NCBI RefSeq assembly: GCF_038396675.1
Contig: NC_088921.1
Span: 25,253,501 to 25,317,500, forward strand
Origin: Hydra vulgaris
Taxonomy: Eukaryota > Cnidaria > Hydrozoa > Anthoathecata > Hydridae
DNA length: 64,000 nt
Reading direction: 5' to 3'
Shown here piece after piece: positions 405 through 61,147 of this stretch. Under the pieces are notes generated by a model. That model made no database searches and was not told the origin of the DNA. It saw only the letters and a program-made list of their open reading frames with translations. Position 1 is the first letter of the stretch, and every line of letters starts with the position of its first letter. The translations under genes were made by a program, and so were the position numbers.

Positions 405-1193
405 ATGTTTAAGCATTTAGTTGAAAGAAATAAATCTACAACAAGCATTTCCACTTCTCTTAATTTATCTAAGCGCGCAGTTCAAAATCTTGTCGTTAAG
501 TTAAACAGACGAAAATTCGACGACATGACTGCATTTAAGTCGTTTTCTGATAAAAAACGAGGTGAAAGATCTATAAAGGCTCAAATAAAAAATATAATTG
601 AATTATGCGTACAATAAACAATCTTTGTACGCAAGAAGCAATAAAAGAAAATCTTTTTCAAGATTTAATTTAGATTCACAATCTACTATTTCAAGAAAAC
701 TCAAACGCTCGGATTTATCAAGAAAGTGAGTTGTGCATGTGCCAGAAGAGAAATTTCTAATGAAAAACTTATTTATTTCAATGAAACTAGATTTAATGTG
801 CACACCAATAGCACATATGGTTATTCGCTAAGAGGTGCACCAGCAGTTTTACAGTCGTCTTCAAATTGTTGCAAAAATGTTAGTTTAATTTGTGCTGTTT
901 CAACAATGCGAGTGCTGGCTTATGAAATAAAAACTGGAGTCTGAAATGCAGATTTATTTATTATTTTCATTACTACAATGCTGGCACGATGGATTTGAAA
1001 TGTAAATGTGGAAGCGCCGTTGCTTGTTATGGACAATTGTAAATTCCACGGGAGTCTTTCTCTTAGGCAAAAACTGCCAGCATACACGCCACCGCTTAAT
1101 CCGATAAAAGAATTTATTTCTTCTTTAAAGAATACTTACAAACAGGGAGAAAGGCCTCGAAATACGGATGGGGTAATCTTAAAAATTTTATAA
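405..1193 (+). pseudogene. IS630-like DDE transposase, broken and catalytically dead
   Basis: Three pieces in different frames follow the order of an IS630-type transposase. The N-terminal piece (405-617) is a helix-turn-helix like region around 'STSLNLSKRAVQNLV'. The middle piece (726-944) has the block 'FNETRFNVHTNSTYGYSLRG', where families normally show an Asp two residues before Thr/Val ('DET' or 'DEV'); here it is Asn. The last piece (1008-1193) has 'LVMDNCKFH', containing the second Asp, and 'PPLNPIKEF', where the catalytic Glu of 'NPIE' is Lys. Two of three catalytic residues appear lost, and frameshifts and stops separate the pieces. It is a relic and encodes no intact protein. The family name is recognised by motif only. 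Confidence 0.65.
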
Positions 1194-3350: not shown

Positions 3351-4356
3351 ATGCCTAGGATCAACGAAATTAGTGTTGACGTACGGCAAATGATTTTTGA
3401 TGATCATGAAAGAGGCTTTGGGTATAGAAAATTGCTGAAAAATATGATAAAAGCAAGGCAACGGTACAATCAATAATACAAAAATATAAAAAGATTGAGA
3501 GTATGCAAAATAAAGCACGTTCAGGCCGTCCACCAAAAACAACATCTCGAGAAGATAGGCTTATTGTACAAGAAGTAAAGCGAGAGCCTGCTATTTCTGC
3601 CAGAGCTATTAAAGAGAAACTAAACGTGAACGTTTCTAAACGAACAATACAATGTCGACTTCGCTCTGCAGGGTTCAGGCTCAGAAAAAAAATAAAACTA
3701 AACGCTTTGCTTTTGCAAAAAAGTACTTTTCAAAGACACAAGGTTTCTGGAAATCAATTTTATGGTCTGATGAAAGTAAATTCGAACTAAAGAATTTCAA
3801 AAAAGTACCAAATGTATGGATAAGAAAGGGAAAACCCTTAGATAAAAAAACTATAATAGCAACCATCAAACACGGAGGTGGTAATGTGGTAACGAAGGTG
3901 GTAATGAATTAGTTTGGGGCTGTTTTAGTTATAACAGAGTTCTAACTTAGTTCAAATTAGAGAAAAATTAACAGGAACTGGATATGTAAATATTTTGCGA
4001 AACAACCTTATGCCCTCCTTCAATAAATTAGGATTAGCGGATCAATTTGCCTTCCAACAAGACAATGATCCAAAACATACCAGTAAAATTGCCAAAATAT
4101 ATTTTGAAGAGAATGAAATAGAATTGTTAAATTGACCTGCGCAAAATCAGATATCAATCCATTTGAAAGTTTGAGGCATTATTTGGATAGCAAAGTTAAT
4201 AGGGATGAGCACAGTATCAACAAACAAAAATTCGTTTTAGCGTTGGAGGTAGCTTGGCATAATATTCCCCCAAACTATTTACAAAACTTAGTTGATAGTA
4301 TTCCTCGTCGCTTGCAAGCAGTTATCGATGCCCAAGGACTTCATACTAAATATTAA
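3351..4356 (+). pseudogene. Tc1 transposase (DD34E), frameshifted
   Basis: The start is the ATG reading MPRINEISVDVRQMIFDDHE, typical of Tc1-like N termini. It is followed by a paired-like HTH region and the GRPPKT linker with 'SAGFRLRKK'. The catalytic part shows 'WSDESKFEL' (first Asp), 'QQDNDPKHTSK' (second Asp) and 'DINPFESL' (Glu). Spacing from the second Asp to Glu fits DD34E if the frameshift is allowed for. Breaks include a frameshift near 3460, one near 3700-3790 where two overlapping frames share the sequence, a stop near 3910, and a Trp codon turned into TGA near 4132 followed by a frame change. The protein cannot be made as is. Its terminal repeats are intact, so it could in principle be mobilised by a related transposase. 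Confidence 0.8.
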
Positions 4357-4602
4357 TTAACAAATAAAACAAAAAAACTCGAATATATTAAATAAAACTT
4401 TGAGAGGTATGAATACTTTTGACGCTTCCTAATATCTCAATTTTTAAATAATTTTCACTTTTTTAAAAACAAGATTTAATTTTTCAAATATTATAGTTAA
4501 TATTGTTAATAGTTGCTACAATAAACATTTATTAAATTTTAATTGAAATTATTTTAATCAATTTGGTTTTTGTTTTATTGCTACAACATATTTTATGATA
4601 GG

Positions 4603-4627
4603 TTTTGAATAATTTTGTCGCATACTG
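4603..4627 (-). repeat. Tc1 right terminal inverted repeat
   Basis: Perfect reverse complement of the left end, followed directly by TA at 4628-4629. Confidence 0.9.
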
Positions 4628-4629
4628 TA

Positions 4630-6140
4630 TTACTTTGACTTGATCGAGAATATTTCTAACACTCTGAACATTCCATGATTTTACTAACAACTAAATTAAG
4701 TTTATGGCAAGCACAGTGAACAAAATTTGCATTTGAGCTGACAAATTTAATTCTAGATGAAATACCTTTTAATATACCAGGCATTGCTCCAGCACTATTA
4801 TATCCTTGACCTCTACATTTTTGGATATCAAGACCAAGATTATCAATTGCAGAAATTATGTTTTGCGGAAGACTAAGACCAGTTGTACCAGATTTACCTT
4901 CAATAAACTGTAGAAAGTTTTTGCAAATAACATTATCACAATCAATGTATCTTATAACTAGAGATAGCTGTTCAACATTAGAACAATCAGAGGCTCCATC
5001 ACACGAGATAGAAAAGTAACCCAACTTTTTAATCTTCTTAATTAGAACTTCTTCGATTATTATTCAATAAGTTCATTTTGTGTGGTTTTAGATATGTAGG
5101 TTGCATTTTTAAGAGCAGAACGAATATGGTGTTCAAGAGCTTTATCACCTGCTTCAATGCGAAAATTTAAAAGCTCTACAAAGTTACCTATACCAATGAT
5201 GTCTTTACATGTTTCTCCGATCTCTGGATGATACTTACTGTCATCACAATGACCTCGAAAAGCAATATCATTGCGGCCAAGAAAAATAATTGTCTTTATA
5301 ATTGGAATTAATTTATTTCCATTACTTATAATAAGTTTTTTTCTTAGATTATCAATGTCAACTTCAATCAGATTTTTTTTGAATTAGATCTAGATTGCAG
5401 CATGTTAAGGCAATGCATTGACATTTGATGAAGTCGAAAACTATTATTATGATCCATATAAGCACGAGTTACATTACCCCATATTGTTAAAGGTTTTCAA
5501 ATAAAGTTGATTATTAAGGTATTGTTTTGAATGCTGCTACCCAACAGTGTACATGGAAGGCAGTATGCTCCATCTTCAATCTGTGAGTAAGCTAACTAGG
5601 AATATTCAAGCACCCATTTATGTAAAAATGATCATTTCTTTTCTTTACCAGAAACAAGAAAAATGAAAGACAAGTTGGGAATAAATATTTTATTAACTAG
5701 ATCTAATAACATTGAATCATCTTTGTCAGGAGATGGATGTCTACCGCGCTCATAGTAAGTAGAAACATCATAAAAAGGAAGACTTGAAGACTGATCTGAT
5801 GTACAAGGAATACAATTAAGTAAGATTGGATTAGGAGTAACATCAATATTTACATCTATAAATTTAGCTTCATTATCTATGCAAAACTTTATGTGAGATT
5901 GAACAAATAATTTTTTCATTGAAAATAGATTTTTTGGAGGTTTACAAGATAATATAAGAACCTTAGTGGGAACAGAAGAATGCGATAGAACACTTAGCAA
6001 AACTAAACACGATTCTCTTTTTGAATCGCTTTTGACAAGTTTCTTGTCAAAAGTGATTTAAAAAGAGGATCGTGTGACAAGAGCTAAAAACTTCTCTTTT
6101 CACAGTAGGGACAAAACGATTTGGTGACGACATATCTTTA
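4630..6140 (-). pseudogene. hAT transposase (ZMYM1-like), N-terminal half with TTF-type zinc finger and DUF4371-like region
   Basis: Read on the minus strand, a possible start is the ATG near 6134 (MSSPNRFVPTVKREVF). A linker (6000-5632) leads to a TTF-type zinc finger block near 5630-5540 with 'FLHKWVLEYS', a stop replacing Trp, then 'LAYSQIEDGAYCLPCTLLG'. The transposase body follows, with 'FLGRNDIAFRGHCDD' and 'NFVELLNFRIEAGDKALEHH'. The 5024-4656 part has 'ISCDGASDCSNVEQLSLVIRY', 'CRGQGYNSAGAMPG' and 'FVHCACHKLNLVVSK'. These are hallmark blocks of ZMYM1-like hAT proteins. The first catalytic region reads CDGASD, where many relatives have a D-E-x-x-D pattern. At least one stop and several frameshifts break it. 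The frame continues across the Tc1 insertion into 3010. Confidence 0.75.
6007..6075. repeat. Hairpin, 33 bp arms with a 3 nt loop
   Basis: Positions 6007-6039 pair with 6043-6075 with three mismatches. It lies inside or just upstream of the N-terminal coding part of the hAT relic and disrupts its frame. It could be a tiny foldback insertion or a snap-back duplication. Confidence 0.8.
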
Positions 6141-6232
6141 TCCTTGGAAATAGAGCGATAATCTGTGATTTATTATAAAAAACTCAGAATTTCTTTATTT
6201 TTTTTATGATTACCGCGTGGGTATATACTTAC

Positions 6233-6627
6233 ATTAAATAACTTTTTATATTTTTCAAGTGCAAATTCAGGATAAATAGAACGAATTGTTTATTTAATAC
6301 TGTAGATAATCCAAATAAACAAAGAAAAGAAGCAAACTTATTGTTTCTGCAACTGTTGTAGGCTCCTTTTTTTTCAGAACTATTTATATCATTTAATTCT
6401 GTAAAAGAACCAGAATACTTAAATGAAACACATACCATGAAAACACTAGAGAGTGAAGAAAAACTTTTAGATTCCACTTGGTTTAAAATTATTGGGCATC
6501 TTGAATAAAAATTTCTTTCCCAAAGGACTCAAGAGAAGTTAATAGTCAATAAATTTCATGTGTTTTATCTGATGAATTTATCACTAAAGCAGCAAAGTTG
6601 TAAAGACATTTACCATTTTCCATTAAC
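6233..6627 (-). pseudogene. OTU/vertnin-like domain relic (possible exon)
   Basis: On the minus strand a good acceptor (cttaacag, ending at 6628) precedes 'LMENGKCLYNFAALV', which resembles the 'DGNCLFNA' motif of OTU-like and vertnin-like proteins. After two or more stops or frameshifts come 'VSFKYSGSFTELND' and 'YNSCRNNKFASFLCLFGLST', similar in layout to the later part of that domain. The piece ends in 'LEKYKKLF' followed by a strong donor (GTAAGT at 6232-6227). Such domains are common in cnidarian repetitive proteins. The assignment comes from motif memory and is tentative. The gene is broken, and the neighbouring mariner lies in what would be its upstream intron. Confidence 0.4.
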
Positions 6628-6649: not shown

Positions 6650-7919
6650 CCAGGTCTATAAGTATGAAATGAGCGTTTTTTTTTCAAAATAAAACACTAT
6701 TTTCTTAAGGAAAAATAAAAAATATTTTATTCAAAGTATTTGCCACTGCTTTCTACACATTTTGACCACCTTTCTGGAATTTTGTGGATACTACGCCAAT
6801 AAAACTGATCGTTTTTTGAGGCAAACCATTCGGAGACCCATTTTTTGACTTCTTCGTAGGAATTGAAGTGTTGCTCATTCAATGTATGTCCTATCGATAA
6901 AAACAAGTCGGAAGGAGCCAAGTCTGGTGAATACGGCGGGTGAGGTAACTCTTCCCAGCCAAGTGATGTTATCGTTTCCTTGACCGCTTTTGCTGTATGA
7001 CTCGGAGCATTATTATGCAACAAAATTACCTTTCCGTGTCTTCTGGCCCATTCTGTTCTTTTTCAATCAATGCATGGTTCAAATTGATCATTTGTTGTCG
7101 GTAGCGTTGCGTATTAACAGTTTCGCCAGGTTTTAGAAGTTCATGATACACCACTCCCTTCTGATCCCACCAAACACAGAGCATTGTCTTTTTTCCGAAC
7201 CGATTAGGCTTTGCAGTCGATGTTGATGCTTCTCCTGGATTTACCCATGATCTTTTGCGTTTGGGATTCTTAAAATAAATCCATCACCAGTCACAATTTG
7301 ATGCAATGCTGACTTCCTTTCGTGTCGTAACAGCAACATTTCACATGCGGTTTTTCGCTTTTCCATCTGCCTGTCATTCAATTCATGTGGCACCCAATTT
7401 CCGCACATTTGGATCTTTCTCATAGCTTTTAAACGGTCAGAAATTGCTGGTTGTGAAACATTTAACATTTCTGCCATTTGTTTTTGACTTAAAGTGTCCT
7501 CTTCATCCAGTATTGCTTGCAATTCTGTGTCTTCAAATTTTTTTGGTGGTCTTCCACGTTCTTCATTTCGCACATCAAAATCATTATCTCTGAACCGCTG
7601 AAACCATCTTTTGCATGTTGCTTCCGATAGAGCATGATCACCATAAGCTTCGACAAGCATTCGATACGATTCTGCAGCACACTTTTCTTCAAATGAAAAA
7701 ATTAGTGCTTTCCGCAAATTATCATTTTCTGGTACAAAATTCGACATTTTTAACACGATTAAAAAATATAATGTTGTTTATACAATGACTTGGTGTTTAC
7801 TAAATATGTTTGACAGATGTCATAGCAGCAAAATTAAAAAAAATTAAGGCCCGTTCACAACAAATGATCTCTATCGATACATATGTAACTCGACGCTCAC
7901 TTCATGCTTATAGACCTGG
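6650..7919 (-). mobile_element. Complete mariner element
   Basis: A 1270 bp element with about 28 bp inverted ends. The left end starts CCAGGTCTATAAGTATGAAA and the right end is its inverse with two differences. TA dinucleotides flank it at 6648-6649 and 7920-7921. Length, TA duplication and transposase type all fit the mariner family. Its transposase reads on the minus strand. Confidence 0.9.
6727..7756 (-). pseudogene. Mariner transposase (DD34D), frameshifted with second Asp changed to Asn
   Basis: The start MLKMSNFVPENDNLRKALIF is followed by the N-terminal HTH ('SFEEKCAAESYRMLVEAYG', 'ATCKRWFQRFRD'), the linker 'GRPPKKFED' and a second HTH ('LSQKQMAEMLNVSQPAISDRL'). The mariner signature 'WVPHELND' is present, as is the first catalytic region 'IVTGDGF' (normally TGDEKW). 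A frameshift near 7260 and further frame problems near 7050-7020 split the ORF. The last part reads 'LHNNAPSHTAKAV' and 'YSPDLAPSD'. Mariners have HDN at the first site, so the second catalytic Asp is Asn here; the third (SPDLAPSD) is kept with 34 residues between. The protein is inactive on two counts. Confidence 0.85.
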
Positions 7920-10432: not shown

Positions 10433-10845
10433 TTAAGTGTACCAAAATCGATTTCTTTAAAAAAAGAGATACAAAAAATATTTAGTTATTTGTTAACAGT
10501 TTTTAATGCAATAATAATTTAATTTATGTAAAACCTATCGTTATTTCTTTGTATTGGAGTTAAAACTTAAATATGGAATGTGTGTCCTTGATATTCGCGA
10601 GTTAATGGATATGTGAATAATAATATAATAATATCCCGCATGCTCTTTCTAATAATTCTACTTTTATTTTTGCCATAATAAAAATACTTTTAATTTTTTT
10701 ATTTTCCATAAATGATTTTATAAATTTTTTTCTGTATTTCCTTAATAACATAAATTACCTATTAACATAAAGTATGACAAGCAGATAACGTAATATTAGT
10801 AAAGTAAATAGAAATGTTTTAGATGTATGTAAAGATATTCGAGAA
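10433..10845. promoter_or_regulatory. Upstream region of the Bcl-2-like gene
   Basis: AT-rich sequence between the MITE-like element and the Bcl-2-like start codon. An in-frame TAA at 10786-10788 with no ATG between it and 10846 supports 10846 as the first usable start, unless an upstream exon joins through an acceptor such as the 'attag' near 10799. No specific motif is claimed. Confidence 0.3.
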
Positions 10846-11950
10846 ATGAAAGATCCTATGATGGCGAGATTTGTAAATACTAGTTGCGAGATTAATAACA
10901 ACAACGCGACAGATCACAATTATAATAATTACGATACTAGTGACACAGTAGAACAAGATTTTTTTAGATCGATAGAAGACAACATAGAAAAACACCGCGG
11001 TTTCATCCGAAAACTTGCTAACGATCATATACATTATAAACTGTTTGGTAAGGGAATTATAAACATATGCGATGACAACATTAAAATGAATCCTTTTGAA
11101 AAAAAACTCACAAAGACGGCCGTTACATTGCGTCGCGTCAGTGTTGAGTTGGAAGATATACATATTGATTTTTTTAAAAATGTATGTCACGCAATAAACG
11201 AAGAAAACGTCGGTAAAGTTTTCAACGAAGTTTCGCAAGAGGTTTTGGCTGATGACAATTTAAATTGGGGACGAGTGGTGAGTTTAATTACGTTCGGTGG
11301 AAACCTAGCTCAATGGTTTTGGGCTAGACAGCCGAATAATGAATTGATTGAAGAGATCGAGGATTGGTTAACCGAAAGTTTGACAGATAAAAAAGACTGG
11401 ATTATTGAAAAAGGAGGCTGGGTACGACTTTTTATAATTTATATAGTTTTGAGTTATGAGTTTTCATAGCTCAAAACTTAATTTTTTCAGACTTTTACAA
11501 ATCTCTAAATATCACTGTTATTCTCTATTATCTAAAGTTTAGATAATTAAAGTTTTATATATTGTATATTTAAATTCTAAAAGCGTCTTACCTCCTCCTA
11601 TGAAGTAACGTTGGTGTTACCGCAACTTCGTAGTTTCCTTATTGTTTATTAATGCTTTTGCGCGCAACTAATCCATATTTTATTCGTAGAATAAGCTATT
11701 CAGAAATTTGCTAAGAAAATTCTACATTTGCTAAGAAAAAAGTGACGTGCAAATATAAATTTATTTACAATCGTATAATTTGTATGTATAATTTATTTTA
11801 ATTTTGATTAATATGGATTTTTTTTTTTTTTAGGACAACTTTAATCGCACATTTACAAAACCAATGCGAAGCACATGGTGGAAAACTAGTTTATGGGTTG
11901 GGTTGAGCGCATCTTTAGTGGTAGCATTTGCTATAAAATTTCTGAGGTGA
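10846..11950 (+). CDS. Bcl-2 family apoptosis regulator, two exons (10846-11421, 11834-11950)
   Basis: Joining 10846-11421 and 11834-11950 across a GT-AG intron gives 230 residues with an in-phase junction and a TGA stop. The exon junction falls inside BH2. A BH3-like stretch lies at about residues 94-105 (TLRRVSVELED), degenerate because the usual Gly-Asp pair is missing. BH1 is clear at 138-152 (NLNWGRVVSLITFGG). BH2 is at about 184-196 (WIIEKGGW then DNF from exon 2). The last 25 residues hold Trp-Trp and a hydrophobic helix ending in KFLR, a typical tail anchor for the outer mitochondrial or ER membrane. The N-terminal third is Asn/Asp rich with no BH4 recognised. Strong BH1 and BH2 favour a multidomain member, and the BH1 wording is closest to Mcl-1-like proteins. 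Pro- or anti-survival function cannot be told from sequence. It is the only clearly intact host gene in the first 58 kb. Confidence 0.88.
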
Positions 11951-13427: not shown

Positions 13428-14834
13428 TATTAGTAGTATTATTAACACCGTTATTTTTATGTTATAAAGTTATTATTAATACCGTTATTTTTATGTTACA
13501 AAGTTTATTATTTTTATTATATATTATGAAAGTTAGCATTATATTTATTTTAATTAGATATTGTTAACATTAGCAGGTGTTTACTTTATATTAGCAAAAT
13601 TACTATTTGTAAACATCCTTGAATATAAAATCTTATTTAGAAATAAATTATTGATTGATATTGATTGATTTGAAACTCTATGTATACAAAACGTCTAAAG
13701 AAATCTCATTCGTAGGCATCTTTTCAAACTATGAACTAAAATATAAAAATTAAACAGAAGACTGATGAAATATAGAATTCAAGACCTAGTGGCTGATCTT
13801 TATTAACAAAAAAACTGCTGCCACAAAGATTTCAACTTTGTTTCTATCCGTTCTTATAACATTTTGGATCTCCGTTTGGGTTGAAAAAAAACCTTTTACC
13901 ATTTATATTTAGAGATCTTTGTCAGAGGATCCTAATGCGTGGTTAACGGATCCAAACACTTTGCCATAATTTTAATACCACTTCTGCAGCAGACTTATAT
14001 CCAGTATAAGTTAAATGATATTTATTAACTACAAAAGCGCATTAATTAGAGCAATATTTTTTTTAGTATCAAAGAAGCAAGAACTTCCCTTCAACAAAAA
14101 AGTTTAAAAAATTTTTTCGCAAATATCCTGGTAAATAATTTGTTTGGCACTTGGGTATCCCTTTACCAGAAACTGCCTTGCCCCCCTCCTTTCACCCCCC
14201 ACCATCCCCCCATTCAAAGAAGGTGATTTTCAAGTTGCAGTAGGATTCTTTGTTGTTGTTAGTATTTTTGCAATAGAGGCGAACCCTTAAAAAGATGGTA
14301 CTTTTTAAGAATTCGCTCCCTCATCTTATTCCTGGAATTGCCGTTCTGAGCTTTAAGGCAAGAGACATAATTATATTTTGATATTACGCTGGACTGTTAG
14401 CAAGAAAAACAAGTTTTGTTCTGTTTTATTATGTGTTTATAATACTTTACAGTTAAATAAGAAAGTTTTAAAGCTGCTTTTCTAGCTTTTCTATCAGCAA
14501 AGCTCTCCATAACATATCATAATCTATTTTCTTTGTTAACTTATGTTCGATCGAAAGATGTTATAAATAGCTAAACCGGTTCTGTTCTGTTGTTGAACGT
14601 AATTAACTTTTTTATTAATTTAATTTGCTGAAAGATATTTCTCCTGATGACCCTGACGTGAAAATTGTAGAGCGTATTTCAAGACGAATACATATTTGAT
14701 TATTGAATAATATTTATTTTGTAGTTCTTTTATTGGATTAATAATAGAAGTTAATGAAATTTTTTTTCAGTAAAAACGCTAGTTTATACATTGCATATTT
14801 TGTAAAAAATTCCTAATTCCTCTTTAAATAGCGC
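13428..14834. other. Intergenic, AT-rich, no gene recognised
   Basis: Contains a short (ATTGATTGAT)n-like run at 13650-13670 that could be a LINE tail, and a C-rich patch at 14180-14210. No protein family was recognised in any frame. Confidence 0.4.
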
Positions 14835-14837
14835 ATA

Positions 14838-15001
14838 CTATGCCTGCCGGATTGTAGCAATATTCAAATTGAAAAATATATGTAATCTTTTCTAAATATA
14901 TATTCAATCATTTTCAAATATATATTCAATCTTTTTCAAATATATTCAACCTTTTTCAAATATATTCAATCTTTTTCAAATATATATTCAATATTCCTGG
15001 G
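14838..15001 (+). repeat. Left TIR with five 20-22 bp tandem units
   Basis: After the outer 40 bp, five units of 'caatctttttcaaatatatt' type (20 or 22 bp, differing by one AT) precede 'caatattcctgggg'. Confidence 0.85.
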
Positions 15002-15120
15002 GAGAACGCGGCCAATCGGCTTTTGGTTGAACAAAACATTGTCAACATTTAAAAATACTTTAATGATATTATTTATAGAAAAAGCGTGTAGTTATAAAAA
15101 GCAGTTATACTTATACCGAT

Positions 15121-18067
15121 ATGGATAGTTATAGCAAAGTTGCATCTTTGTTAGAGGAAGCTTCTATTCTTCTTCGCACAAATCAAAGCACAAATATCAG
15201 CAGGCCACAATCGGAACTCACAATAACCTCCACATTACAAAGAGCTAGAGGAATGCTCAATGAAAGTGGTTCATCGGGTATTTTTAGGCGCCTTAATAGA
15301 AACGATAGATTAAGGTCGTCAGCACCATACAGTAGCAATATAGGCAACCACATAGGCAATCAAAATAAATCAAAGAAAATGACAAAAACATTAGAATTTG
15401 CACTAATTTCATCTACAGAAAATGATGAAGAACAATTCCTAAAATGGGATTCTGTAATTGCAAATGGAATTTTGATTATCAATGAATTCGATAGTGAAAA
15501 AATATTAAGAGAGAAAATAAAGGAAAATTTTCTTTGCTGGGTTCAGATGAATTCGATTTTGTTAAAGTATCACGAAAAAAAATATCAAAATTAAATAAAT
15601 GCTCAAATATTGATTACTCATATGATGTTGTAAAAAAACTAGCTGGACAAGGGCTTTTATATAAAAAAAACGATGCAATGATCATCAAATGATCATTCCA
15701 ACGGAAGTTATTGAAATTCCATCAGCTTCATTTGTATCAAAAAGTTCACAACTAATAGATCAAGAAGATGTTAATGAAGTTGATATACAGGAAATAAAAG
15801 AACTTACATCAGCTTCATTTGTAGCAAAAGGTTCAGTTGATAAAAATATATGTATTGAAATTGATTTTGAAAACCAAAAAAATAAGGAAATTAAAGAAAA
15901 TAATCTTCAGGATCCAATAGAAATTTGAAGGTTTCTTCAAAAAACAATGATCAAGGGCAGAGTTTAAGATATAGAAAACATTGATGAAAACACGGATAAA
16001 GATTCTGAGACAAACTTTATTTGTATCGATCGACAAAATATTTTAATGTCAACATTTGCTGAATTAGAATCCGTTGGAAATTTTTTAATTACATTTGAAG
16101 TTGACTTTATGGGAGAACTAGCTAAGGATTATGGTGGTCCAAGGAGAGAGTGGATACGAGAATGCAATAGAATGATTAAAGAGAGATTATTTGATAGTGG
16201 TTTGAGAGAACTCTTTGCTGAGGAATATTACTTTGTAGGTTTGTTAATTGGTATTGCACTCTTTCAAGAAGGGCTACCAACATATTTACCAGACAGCATC
16301 ATTATTAAGATCACCGAAAATACAGCAGATATTTGTATATCTAATGTACAAAAAGGTTTAAACAAGTTTAATTTGATAAGGTTTTTCAAAGAGTTTCCAC
16401 AATTACTTGAATTATTAGGACCTTCAAAAGTACAATTCACAGCAAAAATGCTTTTAAAATTATTGAAGCCAAAATTTTCATCAGAAGGGTCGACAGCTTT
16501 AGTTAAAGAAAAAGAGATTTATTCTATGTTTGTGAAATATGTCAGAGAGGTAAGTTTTTTTTAAATGTAAAACAGTGATCACTGTGATGTTTTAGATGTT
16601 ACATATAATATATTATTTAGGTTGCCAGTGGTAGAAGAGAGTGTGTTTCATTGGCAAATATTCTTTCTTTCGTCACTGGAGCTTCAGAAGAGCCTCTACT
16701 TGGGTTTGCATTGCAACCGTCTGTTAAATTTATTCCTACTATTGAAGCTGATGAAAAAGTAAAAGATCTATTATATTTAATAAAATAGTAGTATTTAACT
16801 GAAAGATTTTGCTCATACTCAAAATAAATATCGGAATAATTTATTTCATTCAAATTTAGTTTGTTATCGGAAACTAAATTATAATTTAAAAGATGTATAT
16901 TATTAAAATATTATTTTTATAGTCTGTCAAGTCATGTTATCCAGCTACTGGTAATATGTAATCTAGTACAACCTGATTCATGTTAACATCAGGAAGGGCA
17001 TTTAATTGTAAAAATGTTGCTTTAACTTTTCTATAATGGTTTTTAAGTGTCACTATGAAGTGGTTTGGATGGTTCTTCATAGTTTATAGTTTTTAGATTT
17101 CTTCATAATACAAAACTTGCAAAATTAAAAAACGTAAAAAAGGGCAACTTTGGCCCTGCATGTTTCTGCATGACTTTGTTTCACAATATATATTTTGTTT
17201 TAAAATGTTTATATTCTCTACCATAACAGTGTTCCCACAGTCCTGCAATGTCCGGGACTAGTATCCTAGAAAGTCCTGGAATTTTTCTTTTTTTTTCTCA
17301 AAAATCCTGGAAAAGCCCTAGAATTTTTAAAGTGTAGGGGAAGTTCGTGTACCTAGGGCTACGTATTTTCAACGTCAAAGTTTAATGCTCCGCACTTGTC
17401 TAAAAATTGTAAAACTGATATGATCAAATGTATATACCAATTACTTTCTATTGATATAAGTATATTGACTTAAATAAAAAAGTTCCGCCATATAGAGGGG
17501 TTTGAAAAAAATTGGCCATCGGTACAGTGAGCTTTTTTTTAATTGTATCCAATTTAATTGTAGACCAATTGTGGCCAATTTTTAATTGGCCACCAGCTAT
17601 TGTACCTAGGATAATTTAAGTGCAAAGTGGGACAAAACCACCCCAGTTTACTTTAATTAGTGTGATTTCTATAATAAGCTAAAAACATAAACAAGAATAA
17701 TTTGCAAGATCTTGAAATTTTTTTAATAAATATGCAAAAATGTGTGTAAAAAAACTCCATGCTTGGATTTATGATGTAATTTTTCAAAAAATATTTGAAG
17801 GTTATTTTCATAAAAAATTGTTTTTTTAAATAAAAATAATAAAACTAGACATTCTTAAGTGTTGCAAGTTATAATAATATTTTTATTTTTGTTCATTTAT
17901 AGGATCAGAAGACACATGAAGCATATATGTATATACCAACTGCACATACTTGCTCTAATTGTTTAGTTTTGCCGCGTGGCTCGCTGTTATACAAGCTTCC
18001 AGCTAATAACGACCTTTTTGATGTTTATGACATGGCATTTACTAATAACTTTTTTGGAACAATATGA
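15121..18067 (+). pseudogene. HECT-domain E3 ubiquitin ligase-like gene carried by the transposon; HECT exons open, 5' part broken
   Basis: The start MDSYSKVASLLEEASILL lies 120 bp inside the left TIR. The N-terminal part runs open to about 15530, then needs a frame change to continue as 'DEFDFVKVSRKKISK' and 'YDVVKKLAGQGLLY', a block seen in cnidarian and fish HECT proteins of this type. Further breaks lie near 15690 and 15926. The HECT domain itself is open in three exons joined in phase: 16046-16549, 16621-16758 and 17903-18067, with GTAAGT, GTAAAA donors and TTTAG, TATAG acceptors. It shows 'FMGELAKDYGGPRREW', 'YFVGLLIGIALFQEGLP', 'VASGRRECVSL' and the C-lobe 'IPTAHTCSNCLVLPRG', where the Cys after Thr is the expected ubiquitin-accepting residue. 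The C-terminal Phe four residues from the end is also kept. Closest relatives by eye are G2E3-like HECT proteins. How the enzyme would help the transposon is unknown. Confidence 0.75.
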
Positions 18068-18328
18068 TTTTGCAATATGTTTGATGATATTTTTACATGT
18101 TCATATATGAAGTCTTACCAAGTAATATATAATATTTGAGAGAAACGCTAATCTTTTTTTTTCCAAGTCTCTGTTTACCCTCTAAAAATATTAAGAGACC
18201 GTCTAGAACGAATGCAAAAATTTAAAAAGTAACCCTATTATGGATAATTTCCATTTAGTAGCAAATGAATATATTGCTTGATTTGAATATAGGCTCAAAA
18301 CGAATTACATGGAAGTAAAAAAATATAG

Positions 18329-18420
18329 TACTCTCGAGTCCTTAATAAACACACACCCCCCCCCCCCATTTCCACTGTGCCGTTTATTCCCACCCCACTT
18401 GTATTCTGGACTCGAGAGTA
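18329..18420. mobile_element. 92 bp palindromic mini-element
   Basis: Perfect 13 bp inverted ends (TACTCTCGAGTCC at 18329-18341, inverse at 18408-18420) flank a C-rich centre containing a C12 run. It sits between the HECT gene and the transposase gene of the large transposon. One related arm occurs at about 12228. Confidence 0.65.
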
Positions 18421-18643
18421 TAGATACAAAGGATTCTATTCAGTAAAAAACTATTCTGTACACATTAACAAGCAGCTAATACAAAATAAAATAGAAGAAG
18501 AAGTTAAATTCATCTGAAATTATAAATAAGATTCAAATTTTTCCACCACAAGTGCTAAGGCTTCTATGTAAATGTCGATTGCCATTTCAGTGGATTCTTT
18601 AGACATATCTATTGAATTTCTGACGAATGCTTCAATATCAATT

Positions 18644-20042
18644 CTATATTATTCTATTCGGAATTCTATTCGGAATACTAACTGAGTTAACAACAACATT
18701 GTTTAAATCGTGAGATAAAGGGCCGTCAACATCTACTCCATAGATATTAAAATCATTTATATCATTTTCAGTTTCATCTCTTGACATAGGATTGTCAATA
18801 TTTATCATTCCCATAGTCCATATTTGATTGGGAGTCCAATTTTCTTCTGTAGATAAACGATGGTCGTTGTACATAAGTTTAAGCTCTTTCAAGGAAAGAT
18901 TTATTCTTTCTAAATAAACTATATGCAGTGTGAACATGTGAATTGGATTTTCAATATCTAAAATGCCGCTCTGTTCCATAGCATAAAAAGTGTAATAAAA
19001 AGGTAACACGACGCATCGAAACACATCTCTCCATAACCTCTCTATTCTTTGATTTCTTGTGGAAGATCCAGCTAAAAAACTCCCTCTGCCATGACCTCTT
19101 CTTGCAATCATTTCATCACATATAGGAACATTTTCTACCCCCAAAGTCTACTCTTATTCTTGAAGGCGTTGAAAACTCGCTTGTCGCATTTAAAAAAAGA
19201 TTTAACACCGTTTCTGCTAAATTATTTGTATTGGCTTCCAAAAACATTACTTTCCTTGATTTACCATCAATGCACCCATGTATTACGAATTTCCAACGAA
19301 TTAGATAGTGATGTCCATCTATATGCCATAAAGAATTTGGCCATGGTACATAATAAGATCGCCTTCTAACCAATGCTCCCCATCGCAATGCAGTATTCCT
19401 ATGATCCACTCTGTTTAAACTAGAGCGGATTCTTCTTCTTTGTATGTGGTAACCTTTTGATCTAAAATAACCAGATAATAATGGTTCCCCTGTTGCTACA
19501 CCGTGACGAGATATGTATTCAGCTATAATTCTGTCTATTTCGTGGTCATTGATGTTGCTAAAACGACCTGTTTTGTTTAAATTAAGTTCATTTACTCTGC
19601 GATGAACTGTCCAACGTGAAACACCTAAAACCTTCGATGCAACGTTCCAAGAAAAACCCAAACACTTAAATTCTTTTAGAACATTTTTTGGAATTTCGTA
19701 CTTTGGCCTTCCAGGGGTTTTACTATATAACACATTAATATTGATACTGCAGTATTTTAAAGATTTTTCATGATAATAAAGCGAAAGCATTTTCCGAATC
19801 TCCAAAAATATATATAATATACTTTCTATTCTTTCTTTGTTGTTTAAATCACCAATAAACTCTTCATTAAAACTGTTCAATACTGGAATAAGTTGATCGA
19901 TTAAATCAATATGCTGTAATAATAACGGCAAATTATCACCACAAGTGGTTTTTCCAATAAAAGATTCAACTTCATCTAGAAAAAATATTAAATTTTTATA
20001 TAGATCTGCACCCATGTCTTTTTCAATGATTTCGGTCGCCAT
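18644..20042 (-). pseudogene. Integrase-core (rve-like) DDE transposase, one-base frameshift in a G5 run
   Basis: On the minus strand the start MATEIIEKDMGADLYKNL lies about 80 bp inside the right TIR. The first 110 residues are helical and unrecognised. Then come a linker 'KTPGRPKYEIP', an HTH ('GFSWNVASKVLGVSRWTVHRRV'-like region, about 127-155) and a second DNA-binding region ('EYISRHGV' to 'RRRIRSSLNRVD'). The integrase core has 'NSLWHIDGHHYLIRW' with the first Asp, 'HGCIDGKSRKVMFLE', 'SRIRVDFG' with the second Asp, then after the frameshift 'ENVPICDEMIARRGHG', 'GSSTRNQRIERLWRD' with the catalytic Glu. The whole DDE triad is present. The break is a single extra base in the C5 run (plus strand) at 19138-19142; four bases would restore the usual DFGVEN reading. 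The C-terminal part continues to the stop at 18644. This is the type often annotated as integrase core domain protein in fish and cnidarians. Confidence 0.8.
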
Positions 20043-20125
20043 TGTTTTTGTTTGTGTTTAATTTTTTTGTTTGCCATTAATTGTAGTTATTATCCTTCTA
20101 TTTACGCGCGTAAATTGCTTTATCC

Positions 20126-20432
20126 CAGGAATATTGAATATATTTGAAAAAGATTGAATATATTTGAAAAAGATTGAATATACTTGAAAAAGATTGAATA
20201 TATATTTGAAAAAGATTGAATATATTTGAAAAAGATTGAATATATATTTGAAAAAGATTGAATATATTTGAAAAAGATTGAATATATATTTGAAAAAGAT
20301 TGAACATATTTGAAAAAGATTGAATATATATTTGAAAAAGATTAAATATATTTGAAAAAGATTGAATATATATTTAGAAAATATTGCATATATTTTTCAA
20401 TTTGAATATTGCTACAATCCGGCAGGCATAGT
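20126..20432 (-). repeat. Right TIR with about twelve 20-22 bp tandem units
   Basis: Eleven units ending 'gaaaaagatt' plus one degenerate unit, alternating 20 and 22 bp, lead to the outer 40 bp ending in 'ccggcaggcatagt'. The array is more than twice as long as in the left TIR. The units may be transposase binding sites; that is inference. Confidence 0.85.
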
Positions 20433-20566
20433 ATACGTCATTAAAATATAAGTTTAAAACAACTTTAGCTTGAGTTTTTATAAATTCAACACTCGGTTCT
20501 TTTATTTCTGTTAAACTTTTTGATATATTGAAAATATAAACATATTGATATATTGAAAATATAAAT

Positions 20567-20626
20567 ATCCTGAATTAAATAAACAGTTTCAATATAAATA
20601 TTGAAACTGTTTATTTAATTCAGGAT
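20567..20626. repeat. Perfect palindrome, 29 bp arms, 2 nt centre
   Basis: Positions 20567-20595 are the exact inverse of 20598-20626. No coding content. Confidence 0.95.
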
Positions 20627-22553: not shown

Positions 22554-23738
22554 TTATACATATTTGCTTAATAAATAACAGTCAATCTTATTGTTTGAAA
22601 TATATTCTACGTTTGTGCTACTCGCTGCATCCAAGTTGTCGGTATTCAACTCTAAATCATCGTCCTCAGTTAATCCAGTTTTCAGATACTTTGTAGTTTT
22701 AGTTTCAATAAACGGTTTATCATTTGCGATCAACATAACTGTGTGTGCTAAAGAGTCCTTTGTTATTGTCAAATCTTCTCCCGCATTAATTAAACCGGCC
22801 TTTAAAAATTTTCTTTGAACAGAAATGCAAGAAAAGTTTATGAAACATAGTAAAATGTTCTTTTTTGAAAATTCGCTTTTCAAAAATTCAAAGTTTTTAA
22901 GTATTTTAAAATCAACTCGAACCATGACAGACATATCTAAAAACACAGTTTTAATCCAAGTACAGTTATTAACTTCAGAATAAATTGTTTTATTCACTGC
23001 TTCTACACCAGGATAGGTCAAGTTTTCTAACAATAGTATTTTGATATATTTCTCAGCTTCTACCTTTTCAAGTAAATATTTTGGACGCGCTTCACGGGAA
23101 AGAAGTACTAAGATTGCGATACCTGTTCCTACAATGACGCCATACTCTAGTTTGTAAAAACTTGTGCAAAACACAGCAAAAAATGGCAATAAATCCCATT
23201 CATGCAAGCTCCAAATATGTTTTGCTATACTCATTTCAATCATAGTGACAACTGCCATCACCATCATAGCTCCTAAAGCTGCTGATGGAATATTACATAA
23301 AGCTGAAGTCATGAACTCAAAAGCTATCAACGCAATCAGTCCTGAAATTGCACCTAATTAAACAAAATATCTTAAATAAATAAAAGTCAACTTTTCATGA
23401 GTTTTGTTGATGATGATATTTTATTAAATAAGATTAAGTAACATACCTGCTAAAGGAGTTTGAGCACCACTCATAGAATTTAGAGCAGAACGCGAAAAGC
23501 CACCACCTACAATCCAACCTCCATAGAAAGAAGCAATTATGTTGCACATTCCGATTGCAATTCACTCTTGCAGCGCGTTTACTTTATAATTGAATTTTTT
23601 AGCAAATGCTTTTGTTATAGACATTTGTTCAATAAACATCACTATGGGTAATATAATAAGAGAAGCACCAAAGCCTTCTATTAGTTGACCAGTTGTTTTA
23701 ACGGTAACATTTCCATTTTTGTATGGTTGAAATGGACT
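22554..23738 (-). pseudogene. SLC26/SulP transporter relic, exons 2 and 3 (STAS domain)
   Basis: Two exons match the intact gene at 58088-60290 in length and splice sites. Exon 2 (23738-23447, 292 bp) has an acceptor CAG and donor GTATGT. Exon 3 (23353-22554) is open and encodes the last membrane helices plus the STAS domain, with 'LEYGVIVGTGIAILVLLSREA' and 'TVFLDMSVMVRVDF'. Exon 2 carries an in-frame TGA where the intact copy has Leu (after KFNYKVNALQE), which truncates the protein before the STAS domain. The C-terminal tail differs from the intact copy. No exon 1 lies just upstream; the matching exon 1 sequence is 29 kb away at 52822-53410. Confidence 0.85.
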
Positions 23739-28859: not shown

Positions 28860-31600
28860 AAACTAAAAGATTTTTAAATATTATAAATTACACGTTCGAC
28901 GTCATAGCTCTTTCAGAAACTTGGCATGATTTTGAAAATTCTCTTGAATTAAATTCTACTTTTAATTTGCCATTTAATAAATTTATTAGTCAAACAAGAG
29001 GAAGTGGAAAAAAAGGTGGCGGGTTAGGGCTTTATATCTTAAAAAATCATGATTTTAAAGTAAAAAACATACTATGCTTCTCAAACGATAATTATGAAAG
29101 CCTTTTCATTGTTATTATATATAAAAAATTTCGAAATATTTTAACTGGATGCGTTTATCGTCCACCAAGTGGTAAAATCAAATCATTTGAAACTTTTATT
29201 AAAAATACAACTGAAAAAATAAAGAAATTAAAACTTTACACGTTATTGGAGACATGACCCTTGAAGCTCTAACTTATTCAAAGTTTCCGAAAAAAAAATC
29301 CTTTTTTGATATGCTTCTTAAATTTAATGTCTTGTCAGCAATTAATAAGCCAACACGAGTGCCAAAAACCTCGGCAACGGCAGTAGACAATATTTTAATT
29401 AATAATTACCTGGAAATGGAATTTAAAACCGGGATACTTATGACTGATAATAGCGATCACTTTCCGATATTTATAAAAGTAAGAGATTTAAAAACCATGT
29501 CTGATTGTGAACCAAAAGTTATAAATTTGAAAAAAGGCAATCTCAAAACAAGTAATGCTAATGAATTATCAATTAGACTGAAACAAGAAACGTGGTCCAA
29601 CGTATATAAATGTCACACTAACGAAGAATACAATAATTTTTTAGATATATTCCTAGATTGCTTTAATGAAACATGTCCTCAAGAGAAGATACAAATTAAG
29701 ACAAAAGCAGTTGCTAATCCGTGAATTGATAAATCACTGATAAAATGCTCAAAAAAGAAGCAAAAACTATATAGTAAATTTAAAAAAAATAAAAACACTG
29801 AAAATGAGATAAATTACAAAATCTATAAATATTTTCACCAAAATCATATCAAAAAGGCTAAAAATAAATACTACAGTAATCAAATCATTAAATGCAAATC
29901 TGATAATACGAAAACGTGGTCCATCATTAATGAGATAATGGGAAGGAAAAAAATAAATTCAACTTCTTTACCAAAAAGAATTAATATTAACAGCATTGAC
30001 ATATTCTGTAAAAAACAAATCTCGGAAGAATTTAACAAATATTTTATAAATATTGGTCCTAATCTTACTAATAAAATAAGTCCAACATCTCATTCATTTA
30101 AAAACTACCTAAAACCCGCAAATAGCACTATCATGTATGATAATGGAGTCAACTATAAAGAATTCGAAGAAGCCTTTTCCTCTTTAAATAAAAAGAAAAC
30201 ACCAGAGGTTGATGAAATAACTAGCGATTTAGTTATCTTCAATAAAATCAGTCTAAGAAGACTTCTGATCCATATACTTAAGCCCTCAATAACATCGGGG
30301 GTTTTCCCTGATGTACTTAAATTAGCAAAAGTAATTCCTATTTTTAAATGTAATGAACATTCATACATAACCAATTATAGATCTATATCAATACTTTCTG
30401 TATTTTGAACGTATAATTTATAATAGAATCTATAATCACTTAACTTACAACAAATTATTTTACCCAAACCAGTTTTGGATTTCAAAAAAACCTCTCAACA
30501 GAGCATGCAGTCATTGAATTAGTTAATCAAATAACTGATGGTTTTAAACAAAATAAATTTACTCTAGGAGTATTTATTGACTTATCAAAAGCTTTTGACA
30601 CAGTTGACCATTGCATACTACTAGATAAACTAAAGCACTATGGTATAATTAACAAAACTTACAATTGGATTAAAAGTTATCTTACCGATAGAAATCAATA
30701 TGTGTGTAATATACAATCTGGAGTTTTAAATGTTATATGTGGAGTCCCCCAAGGATCTATCCTTGGTCCACTCCTATTTTTAATTTATATAAATAATTTT
30801 TGCAATGCATCTTTAAAACTTAATTCAGTCATGTTTGCTGATAATACAAATCTATTTTTACTAACAATGATATCAAGAAATTATACTTAGATATGAATAT
30901 TAGACTAAATAAAGTAAATAACTTTTTTAGGGCTAACAAACTCTCACTTAACTCAGAGAAAACAAACTGTATATTATTCCATAAAAAAATACAAGAATAA
31001 AACCTTCCTTTTAAGTTGCCTGACCTTATCTTAAATGATAACTTAATTAAAAAACAAGCCAGTATTACATTACAGTATTAGGAGTTTTTGTTGATGAGAA
31101 TTTATCCTGGCTTCCTCAAATAAGATATATTCAATCTAAAATCACTAATATAATTGGTATGATATACCGAGTTCACTCATATATCAATAAACAAAGTCTC
31201 AAACTAATGTATATTGGACTAATTCATTGCTTCATCAGCTATGCAAACATAACATGGACGAGTACGCAACCATCAAAACTTAAAAAAATTTATAGTCTAC
31301 AAAAACATTCTATGAAAATGATGGACGATTTTGAAATAAATATCTATCAGCTTTTAATTTTTATGTATTGATTCAATAATAATCTCTCTACTGAAAACTT
31401 TAATAACAAGTTTGTAATAAACATAAATGAAAACTTTTATCTAAGAGCAAATATAAGTAACTTATATAAAGTGCCTCAAAACTTTAATAAATATGCTGAA
31501 TATAGCATTGCATATCGAGGACCAAATATATGGAATAGTTATCAAAAAGGATTCAAATGTATGGCAAAGTTATTAAGTTCATTTTAGTTTCTAATAAAAA
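28860..31600 (+). pseudogene. CR1/jockey-like LINE ORF2: endonuclease and reverse transcriptase, broken
   Basis: The endonuclease part has 'VIALSETWHDFENS', 'SGKKGGGLGLYI', 'LTGCVYRPPSG', 'TRVPKTSATAVDNIL' and 'TDNSDHFPIF', the expected catalytic and fold blocks of an APE-type endonuclease; a gap or frameshift removes the 'GDFN' block near 29250. The reverse transcriptase follows with 'KVIPIFKCNEHSYITNYRSIS', 'GVFIDLSKAFDTVDHCILL', 'GVPQGSILGPLLFLIYINNF' and 'MFADNTNLF', where the usual FADD is FADN, so one catalytic Asp is lost. The C-terminal 'WTSTQPSKLKKIYSLQKHS' is present. Frameshifts and stops at about 29724, 30400 and 30887 split it. Related to the LINE at 45552-49440. Confidence 0.8.
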
Positions 31601-49936: not shown

Positions 49937-52025
49937 CTAATAATATTATTATTATTATTCAGTGATCAAATACAAATACAATAATCTATTTATAATTTGA
50001 TGAAGAGGTGCTACACCAGGCCCCCCTATGCTGACGAACATGGAGATACAGAAGCTACAGACAAAGCAGCAATTGTATCTATAAAGTTACTTTCTTATGT
50101 TGTTTTTGAAAGCGTTAATGGATTGAGCGTTCACTGCTTCTTGCAAAAGCGCATTCCATGGGGCGACAATTCTATTTGAAAAAAAGTTATATCGCTCCTC
50201 GCAGTTTTTTACCATCTGACGTTCTAGTTTAAGGTTATGGCCTCTTAGAATATACTTATCTTTACTTTTTGAAATTTTTTGCGGAGCGACAAAACTAACA
50301 AGCTCGAGTTTACGAGTGATTTTGAATTGCTCGATAAGATCTGCTCTTTTGCGTCGTTCTTCAAGAGTTGTTAAACCGAGCCGTTGGAGTCGATCTTCAT
50401 AGGTCATGTGTTTAATAGTCGATATTGTTTTTGTTGCTCAAAGTTGGACTTGCTCGAGATTGGCAATGTCTGATTTTAAATGCAGTGACCAGGCTTGTAC
50501 AGCAAACTCAAGATGGGGGCGAATGTAAGTGAGAAACAGAGTGCGCCATAAATAAAAACTGCGACTGCGAAATGTTTTTTTGAGTCGCCCTAGCACTCTA
50601 TTTGCTACTGATGCGGCTGACTCTATTTGCGGTCTAACGTTAAGGTCATTCGATACCATCACACCAAGGTCTCTTTCGACTGCAGTTTCTTCGAGAGGAC
50701 GACGGGTGCCGCTGACGTTTGACATTGAGTATTTGTACATTGACTTGTTACATCCGCGCCCAACATGCATTACTTTGCATTTCTCAACGTTGAAATGCAA
50801 GAGCCAAATATGTGACCATTTCACTGCTCTGTCAACGTCATCTTGGAGAGTGATTTTGTCCGACTCCTTTTTAATTATCCCTATTATTTTGCTGTCGTCG
50901 GCAAACAGTTTTATATGATGAGTAATACTGTCCGGCAGGTCGTTTACAAAGATTACGAATATGAATGGGCCTAAGTCCGAGCCTTGAGGCAGCCTACTAG
51001 TGACTGCTTTCCATTCAGAAAAAATGCCGTGTATAACCACTCGTTGACATCGATTGCTTAGCCAAGCTGCGATCCAGTCAAGAAGGGCGCCTTAAATACC
51101 GTACGCTCTCAGCTTATGAAGAAGGCGTTTATGTGGTACTTTGTCAAACGCCTTTGAAAAGTCTGTGTAAATTACGTCTACTGCGTGTCTGCAGAGAGTT
51201 GCTTCCTTCATGATATCCCGAGTTTCTAAAAGGTTTGATACACATCCCTTACGATGAACAAAGCCATGCTGATTTGGAGAAATTAGACCATTAGCAACGC
51301 AGTGTTCCATTGTTCTTTTTTGTAAAATACTTTCCATAATTTTGAAAGGTATGGAAGTGAGCAAGACTGGCCAGTAGTTGGATGCTTTAAGCGTACTCCT
51401 CTTCTTGAAAATAGGTGTTACATTCGATTTTTTCCATAATTCAGGAACTACACCAGTTGCAAACGAGCACTTATAGATAAGCAAAAGAGGCTTGGCAAAG
51501 GTAGCTGAACATTTACTAAGGACCCTTGGATGTAATCCATCGTAGCCGGTTGATTTTCTTTCATCAAAGTTGTTTAGGCATTTTTGTCGATAGAGAAACT
51601 TGCTGGATCGGTGACACAAACTGCTTCAGTACGACTTTCAAAGCCTGGCATTCAACCTTCGGGCTCTAAAACAAAGACTGATTGAATATAGTTATATAAC
51701 GATGCGCTTATATCGCCGGTATCGGTTGTGATGTTGCTATTGACTGTTTCAAGCGATGTAATGTTGTTACTGACGCTCTTCTTGCTTCTTACATATGCAT
51801 GTAAGCGTTTAGGGTGCTTACGGAATCCCTGACGAGTAGCTCTTCGTACTTTTGCCTACCAGCTTTGACCATTTTTTTAAACTTTTTTGCAGGCAGTGCG
51901 ATGCGATATTTTGAGAAATTTGTGCGTATCTCGACCTGCATTAATGTATTTGGCCCAAGAGGTGCGTTTAGCTTTGACTGCCTGAATAAGTTCTGGTGTT
52001 ACCCATTGCTCCTGTTTTTCTGTAA
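49937..52025 (-). pseudogene. CR1/jockey-like LINE reverse transcriptase, minus strand, 5' truncated
   Basis: On the minus strand translation starts mid-protein near 52025 ('EQWVTPELIQAVKAKRTSW'). It continues through 'KSVSNNITSLETVNSNITTD', the reverse transcriptase entry 'NFDERKSTGYDGLHPRVLSK', 'KKSNVTPIFKKRSTLKASNY', 'QHGFVHRKGCVSNLLE', 'IYTDFSKAFDKVPHKRLLHKL', 'LPQGSDLGPFIFVIFVNDL' and 'IKLFADDSKIIG' with an intact FADD. It ends with 'ERDLGVMVSNDLN', 'LTYIRPHLEFAVQAW', 'YEDRLQRLGLTTLEERRKRA' and 'NFFSNRIVAPWNAL'. Breaks occur near 51660, 51600, 51065 and 50430. The element ends in an (ATT)n tract at 49940-49963. It is GC-richer than its surroundings and looks younger than the relic at 24690. 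The endonuclease is missing, typical of 5' truncation. Confidence 0.85.

Positions 52026-60290: not shown

Positions 60291-61147
<857 letters not shown>

Follow-up and report, generated by a model that had tools for sequence, protein, structure and literature searches.

Why should a DNA transposon carry a gene for a ubiquitin ligase, and does this gene belong to the element or to the host? The question arises in a 64,000-nucleotide stretch of the Hydra vulgaris genome (contig NC_088921.1, positions 25,253,501 to 25,317,500; hereafter the window), where an element bounded by terminal inverted repeats (TIRs) holds two convergent genes, one for an integrase-like transposase and one for a protein with a HECT domain. 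HECT enzymes hand ubiquitin on through an acceptor Cys. We read the window element as a copy, now dead, of an IS3EU/GingerRoot cut-and-paste transposon that has two genes, one of them for a long-kept HECT ligase that would act in trans, and give this reading a probability of roughly 0.7. In its support stands the recurrence of the gene pair, both in copies of the same element and in deeply diverged relatives.

The window element and its copies

The element spans 14839-20430. A sequence-only reading of the window had placed it at 14835..20435, with near-perfect 40 bp inverted ends and arrays; the element and this architecture are borne out, the limits are corrected, and the ends are perfect over 44 bp, with 20/22-bp units on both sides that form arrays inverted to each other (Table 1). 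A longer inverted match of 173 nt (14823-14995 against 20274-20446) is 88% complementary. The distances from array to ATG are ~126 bp for the HECT gene and ~91 bp for the transposase gene, in keeping with the gene starts that had been put about 120 bp from the TIRs. The termini TATGCC..GGCATA are common to the window copy and the other copies of its family (family 1).

The HECT gene had been described as a full domain in three in-phase exons with the acceptor Cys. The exons, their GT..AG borders and the Cys codon stand; the open frame of the window copy does not, since exon 1 differs from that of the sister copy L022 by six indels, four of which shift the frame. The earlier reading is thus corrected in that the window copy is not intact: both of its genes are frame-broken. 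The HECT assignment from the window only is weak because the C-lobe exon alone matches Pfam HECT with E=0.033 (14.3 bits, below the curated cut-off of 23.9 bits that we used as the domain test) and the exon-1 frame at 15968-16561 matches no Pfam family. In L022, where phase 0 was worked out, the three spliced exons give an unbroken protein of 584 amino acids that passes this cut-off (E=8e-10, 39.3 bits). HECT is its sole Pfam match at E<=1, and no PHD-type fingers precede the domain. The nearest solved HECT structures are AREL1 and HUWE1 (~30 bits at best), and the PTAHTC motif of L022 aligns with AREL1 through the Cys. Judged by its sequence, the second gene is that of a HECT E3 ubiquitin ligase with an N-lobe and an acceptor Cys, and ligase activity is predicted.

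The transposase gene comprises 499 codons, and its frame in the copy L018 matches PF24764 (rva_4) with E=5e-75; no zinc-domain family, such as the HHCC domain, matches this frame in Pfam at E<=1. The integrase-core DDE claimed for the window is present as D, D and E codons. They do not share a single open frame in this copy, where two frame-shifting indels place the second D and the E in different frames. In the alignment of family 1 with the related family 2 (see below), both D columns are invariant and the E is present in both rows that reach its column. A search for viral relatives of the transposase yielded 99 pattern stretches, none of which was confirmed. Because of the TA..TA ends, the 6-bp target-site duplications (TSDs) and the rva_4 integrase-type DDE core, we assign the element to the IS3EU/GingerRoot superfamily, membership of which its ends, TSD and core fit.

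The genome search covered 911.5 Mb in 15 contigs and gave 23 family-1 loci, namely the window and 22 fetched loci; this number is a lower bound because the best 40 of 59 candidates were scored. Among these at least 23 loci, HECT sequence is present in 23/23 and transposase sequence in 22/23, so that the co-occurrence of the two genes, which the earlier reading had proposed to check, holds across the copies, and no copy found lacks HECT sequence. The remaining locus, L025, shows no transposase either in the genome search or in the fetched stretch, which ends ~1.2 kb past HECT exon 1. The transposase is partial in L020, where the last two thirds of the gene are gone, and in L027. All three HECT exons are found in each of the 18 both-ended copies that lie at a single locus, with losses in exon 1 of 71 bases in L024 and 3 bases in L014. 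The 6-bp TSD is exact in 15 of these 18 copies and carries one mismatch in three, the window included. A 19th both-ended copy is split over L030 and L031, with AGAGTG at both sides. L010 and L018 have their TSD and flank in common and may represent one duplicated insertion or two matches in one repeat, so their independence is doubtful. The idea that a transposon had inserted in or beside a host HECT gene is refuted by this exon-TIR structure, which is common to many loci: 19 both-ended loci share the TIRs and the HECT exons that these enclose, the TSDs being different at most of these loci, and the exons end inside the TIRs instead of running into host sequence. We give it practically no weight.

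Relatives of the element and constraint on the HECT gene

The pairing extends beyond family 1. A genome search with the transposase (95/95 candidates scored, 90 rows) left 26 loci outside family 1 after its rows were collapsed, and 16 of them have a HECT match within 8 kb, convergent with the transposase in all 16. Among the ten others, reading the DNA of six adds HECT at L039, L041 and L045, again convergent, which brings the total to 19/26 paired loci, 19/19 of them convergent; the remaining four loci lie on C8, C12, C13 and C14.

Two further families can be distinguished. Family 2 (L034, L035 and L037) has the convergent gene layout of family 1 and TA-type termini that read TATGGAACG.. on the left and ..CCATT (L034) or ..CCATA (L035) on the right. 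L034 has its own TIR, a perfect 6-bp TSD (TAATAA) and arrays at both ends with a period of 21, or 42 on the left. Its family's transposase is 38-47% identical to that of family 1, depending on the piece, and the HECT proteins of the two families are 40% identical over 366 amino acids (238 bits), a match that includes ~90 residues before the N-lobe. The family-2 HECT passes the Pfam cut-off with 27.2 bits and carries the Cys motif PTSNTC. In L040, a family-2 copy, the acceptor Cys position reads Val (4475-4732). Family 3 (L041, L045 and L047) has a transposase 27-30% identical to that of family 1, together with HECT C-lobe pieces. The motif PTVSTC is seen in the pieces from L041 and L047, and the L041 piece lies above the Pfam cut-off (25.7 bits). 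No element ends were found at the family-3 loci read. Thus, HECT co-occurs with transposases that are 27-47% identical over matched pieces in three families, and its presence in the elements predates the divergence of at least two, and probably three, deeply split families.

Separate families could each have taken up a host HECT gene, and the intron positions of the HECT gene, which differ between families 1 and 2, agree with such independent captures. We nevertheless regard them as improbable. First, the 238 bits between the two element HECTs compare with ~30 bits to the best solved HECTs, although these scores come from different programs. Second, a genome search with PF00632 (92/92 candidates scored) gave 66 rows at ~26 loci, and 65 of the 66 rows lie more than 10 kb from all 52 loci found with the element HECT queries. 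The only row within 10 kb (C4:1018431) is an element itself, and the row at C4:33797644 is an element too (L047). The two element queries covered the best 88 of 100 and 80 of 138 candidates, and this comparison may therefore lack host matches of low score. Judged by these similarity searches, the element HECTs do not appear to have been copied recently from HECT genes of the host.

The sequence-only reading had named host G2E3-like genes as the comparison. This choice is probably wrong, given the separation of 65 of the 66 PF00632 rows from the element loci and the late origin of G2E3. 'G2E3-like' is a name often given to such single-HECT proteins; G2E3 itself has PHD-type fingers before its HECT domain, and the element protein resembles vertebrate G2E3 as a HECT E3 and differs from it in having no PHD finger. 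According to the part of PMC2837046 available to us, G2E3 arose after the chordate/echinoderm split. Three host-type HECT loci on G000:C9, at ~52.95, 53.44 and 53.82 Mb, have nearly equal scores and spacing and are possibly a recent triplication.

The comparison of dN/dS (nonsynonymous against synonymous change) across copies, also proposed earlier, was run and is dominated by decay. The copies of family 1 form a star, with 113 of 120 intron 2 variants being singletons, and their changes are therefore mostly post-insertion decay. Private coding changes in HECT number 135 replacement and 42 silent, an omega-like ratio of 0.91, and the ratio for the transposase is 0.85. The majority codons are open in both genes, and we infer that elements with intact genes multiplied in a burst and that the copies then decayed. 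Could the HECT gene be a passenger, taken up once and carried without use? The apparently neutral singletons, the variants common to two or three copies (9 replacement, 1 silent) and the broken HECT frame in 16/18 copies speak for this. However, the transposase singletons look alike, as post-insertion decay predicts, and the transposase is broken in 18/18. Moreover, all three families have the Cys motif, HECT occurs at 19 of the 26 other transposase loci, and constraint on HECT between families 1 and 2 is about that of the transposase. Between family 1 and L035, where synonymous sites are near saturation, identity at codon positions 1/2/3 is 54/66/43% over 302 codons of HECT and 45/63/39% over 365 codons of the transposase. 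These values support comparable constraint on the two genes and, with it, the view that selection has kept HECT over that time, and we consider a passenger about as improbable as repeated capture. Since three families carry HECT and its codons are constrained, the gene looks like a long-kept second gene of the element and not a one-off capture.

One transposase relative stands apart. L038 (G000:C3:5611000-5618500) has an open frame of 526 amino acids at 4836-6413 on the minus strand that matches rva_4 (2.3e-29) over its C-terminal 348 residues, and the 7.5 kb read contain neither HECT nor long inverted ends. Its first catalytic Asp motif, WHxD, reads WRCES. From these features, L038 is a candidate domesticated transposase gene.

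Possible targets of the ligase

In the proposed mechanism, the TIRs and the inverted 20/22-bp arrays would be binding sites of the transposase, which would excise the element and reinsert it through a joint staggered by 6 bp; the anatomy is observed, and the catalysis is taken from the family. The HECT ligase would serve the element in trans, and one likely target would be the element's own transposase-DNA complex, in which the ligase would mark the transposase either for turnover or for removal once strands have been transferred, leaving the ends free for repair. A hint comes from family 2, in which both genes start with a SAM-like domain. The transposase start matches SAM_1 with E=8.9e-5 (23.2 bits against a Pfam cut-off of 23), and the open first exon on the HECT side gives E=0.0012 (19.6 bits, under the cut-off). 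SAM domains can pair, and such pairing may recruit the ligase to the transposase complex. Taken further, ubiquitin ligation could be a built-in step of transposition, in which transposase and ligase come together over the inverted arrays by pairing of their SAM-like domains and the complex is then marked by the ligase for removal, allowing repair of the new joint; this more specific version is doubtful. It would be the element-encoded counterpart of the ClpX/MuA step of phage Mu, which is run by the host.

Some viral E3s mark host factors for degradation, and the ligase may similarly mark host silencing or restriction proteins, such as factors of chromatin or of small-RNA pathways. Counter-defence of this kind is in keeping with a ligase gene that is separate, faces the transposase gene in convergent orientation and has been retained for long, and there is a parallel within the same superfamily: fungal IS3EU elements carry a TET/JBP dioxygenase proposed to help escape methylation silencing (PMC12730594, in the part available to us). 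The SAM-like start of both family-2 genes points instead to a partner within the element. We hold action on a host factor and action on the transposase complex to be equal rivals, each plausible and neither reaching an even chance; some other target is a good deal less likely than either.

Several observations weigh against the preferred reading of a long-kept ligase acting in trans. Only two of the 18 copies (L009 and L022) have an unbroken HECT and none has an unbroken transposase, which leaves present activity doubtful. Half of the non-family-1 HECT loci among the matches listed (12/24) have no transposase match within 8 kb, including L033 (6.5 kb read) and L036 (partly masked); conversely, the DNA read at L038, L044 (1 kb masked) and L046 contains a transposase-like piece and no HECT. 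The HECT variants common to two or three copies correspond to a ratio of 2.6, against 0.27 for the transposase (4 replacement, 4 silent), both from small numbers. The contrast between HECT of family 1 and that of the nearer, decayed L032/L033 is weak (dN 0.29/0.27, dS 0.42/0.45; dN 0.30 and dS 0.57 for the transposase in L032). The alignments used for constraint were picked by protein similarity and are thus biased towards conserved codons. Finally, the SAM matches of family 2 are marginal, the HECT-side exon is only putatively spliced to the rest of the gene, and Pfam finds no SAM domain in the family-1 proteins.

Surroundings of the element and known systems

Table 1. Features of the window element, with the SAM-like starts of family 2
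Feature	Position	Strand	Basis or remark
TSD left, GCATAC	14833..14838	.	right counterpart GTATAC, 1 mismatch
TIR left, 44 bp, begins TATGCC	14839..14882	+	equals inverted right end over 44 bases
Subterminal array left, 20/22-bp units	14874..14992	+	repeat analysis
HECT exon 1: N-terminal part and HECT N-lobe, ATG 15121	15121..16549	+	frame-broken here; unbroken in L022, L009
HECT exon 2	16621..16758	+	borders ATTTAG / GTAAAA
HECT exon 3, C-lobe; acceptor Cys codon 17951-17953	17903..18067	+	Pfam and copy comparison
Transposase, rva_4 integrase-type DDE core, ATG 20042, stop 18520-18522	18520..20042	-	frame-broken here
Catalytic triad codons	D 19317-19319, D 19146-19148, E 19040-19042	-	window copy
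Subterminal array right, 20/22-bp units incl. 42-bp double unit	20133..20395	-	repeat analysis
TIR right, 44 bp	20387..20430	-	inverted match to left end
TSD right, GTATAC	20431..20436	.	against GCATAC, 1 mismatch
Family-2 HECT-side first exon with SAM-like start (L035)	444-824	+	Pfam
Family-2 transposase with SAM-like start (L035)	4289-5662	-	Pfam

Just beyond the right end of the element (20567-20626), a perfect inverted repeat of 29 bp flanks a loop of 2 nt. A piece of a Bcl-2 family gene (10789-11466, Pfam 3.4e-20) is located upstream of the element. Sulfate-transporter gene pieces occur on the minus strand at 22557-23357 and 58088-60314; the frames at 22554 and 58088 are alike by eye, and a local duplication is likely. 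Other mobile elements in the window are represented at 7244-7777, 30444-30887 and 50441-51091 by an HTH piece of a Mos1-type transposase and by two pieces of reverse transcriptase.

If a group of transposons does encode its own ubiquitin ligase, ubiquitination could be part of the DNA transposon life cycle or of the element's defence against the host, and the pairing of the HECT and transposase genes makes this role testable. A caution follows for surveys of animal genomes, in which transposons may inflate HECT gene counts; if ligation were a built-in transposition step, many of the animal HECT genes that are annotated as 'G2E3-like' would belong to transposons.

Ginger1 and other transposons bear proteases of the ubiquitin pathway. 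They resemble the present element in carrying an enzyme that acts on ubiquitin or ubiquitin-like proteins; theirs remove it, whereas a HECT ligase attaches it. In the literature searched on HECT or E3 genes in transposons, GingerRoot and HECT evolution, judged mostly by titles and the beginnings of abstracts, we found no report of the HECT pairing, and the main text of PMC2837046 on animal HECTs, in the part available to us, contains no word beginning 'transpos'. The element therefore appears to be a HECT-bearing member of a known superfamily. IS3EU/GingerRoot elements, as described in the part of PMC10045372 available to us, have TA..TA ends, a 6-bp TSD and an integrase-type DDE core that lacks an HHCC zinc domain, and the window element shares all three; it differs in its inverted arrays of 20/22-bp units and in having a HECT E3 gene convergent with the transposase gene. 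The fungal IS3EU elements with TET/JBP also carry accessory enzyme genes, with an alpha-kinase gene lying opposite to the transposase (PMC12730594, same part); the accessory enzymes are a dioxygenase and a kinase in those fungi, whereas in this animal the accessory enzyme is a predicted ubiquitin ligase.

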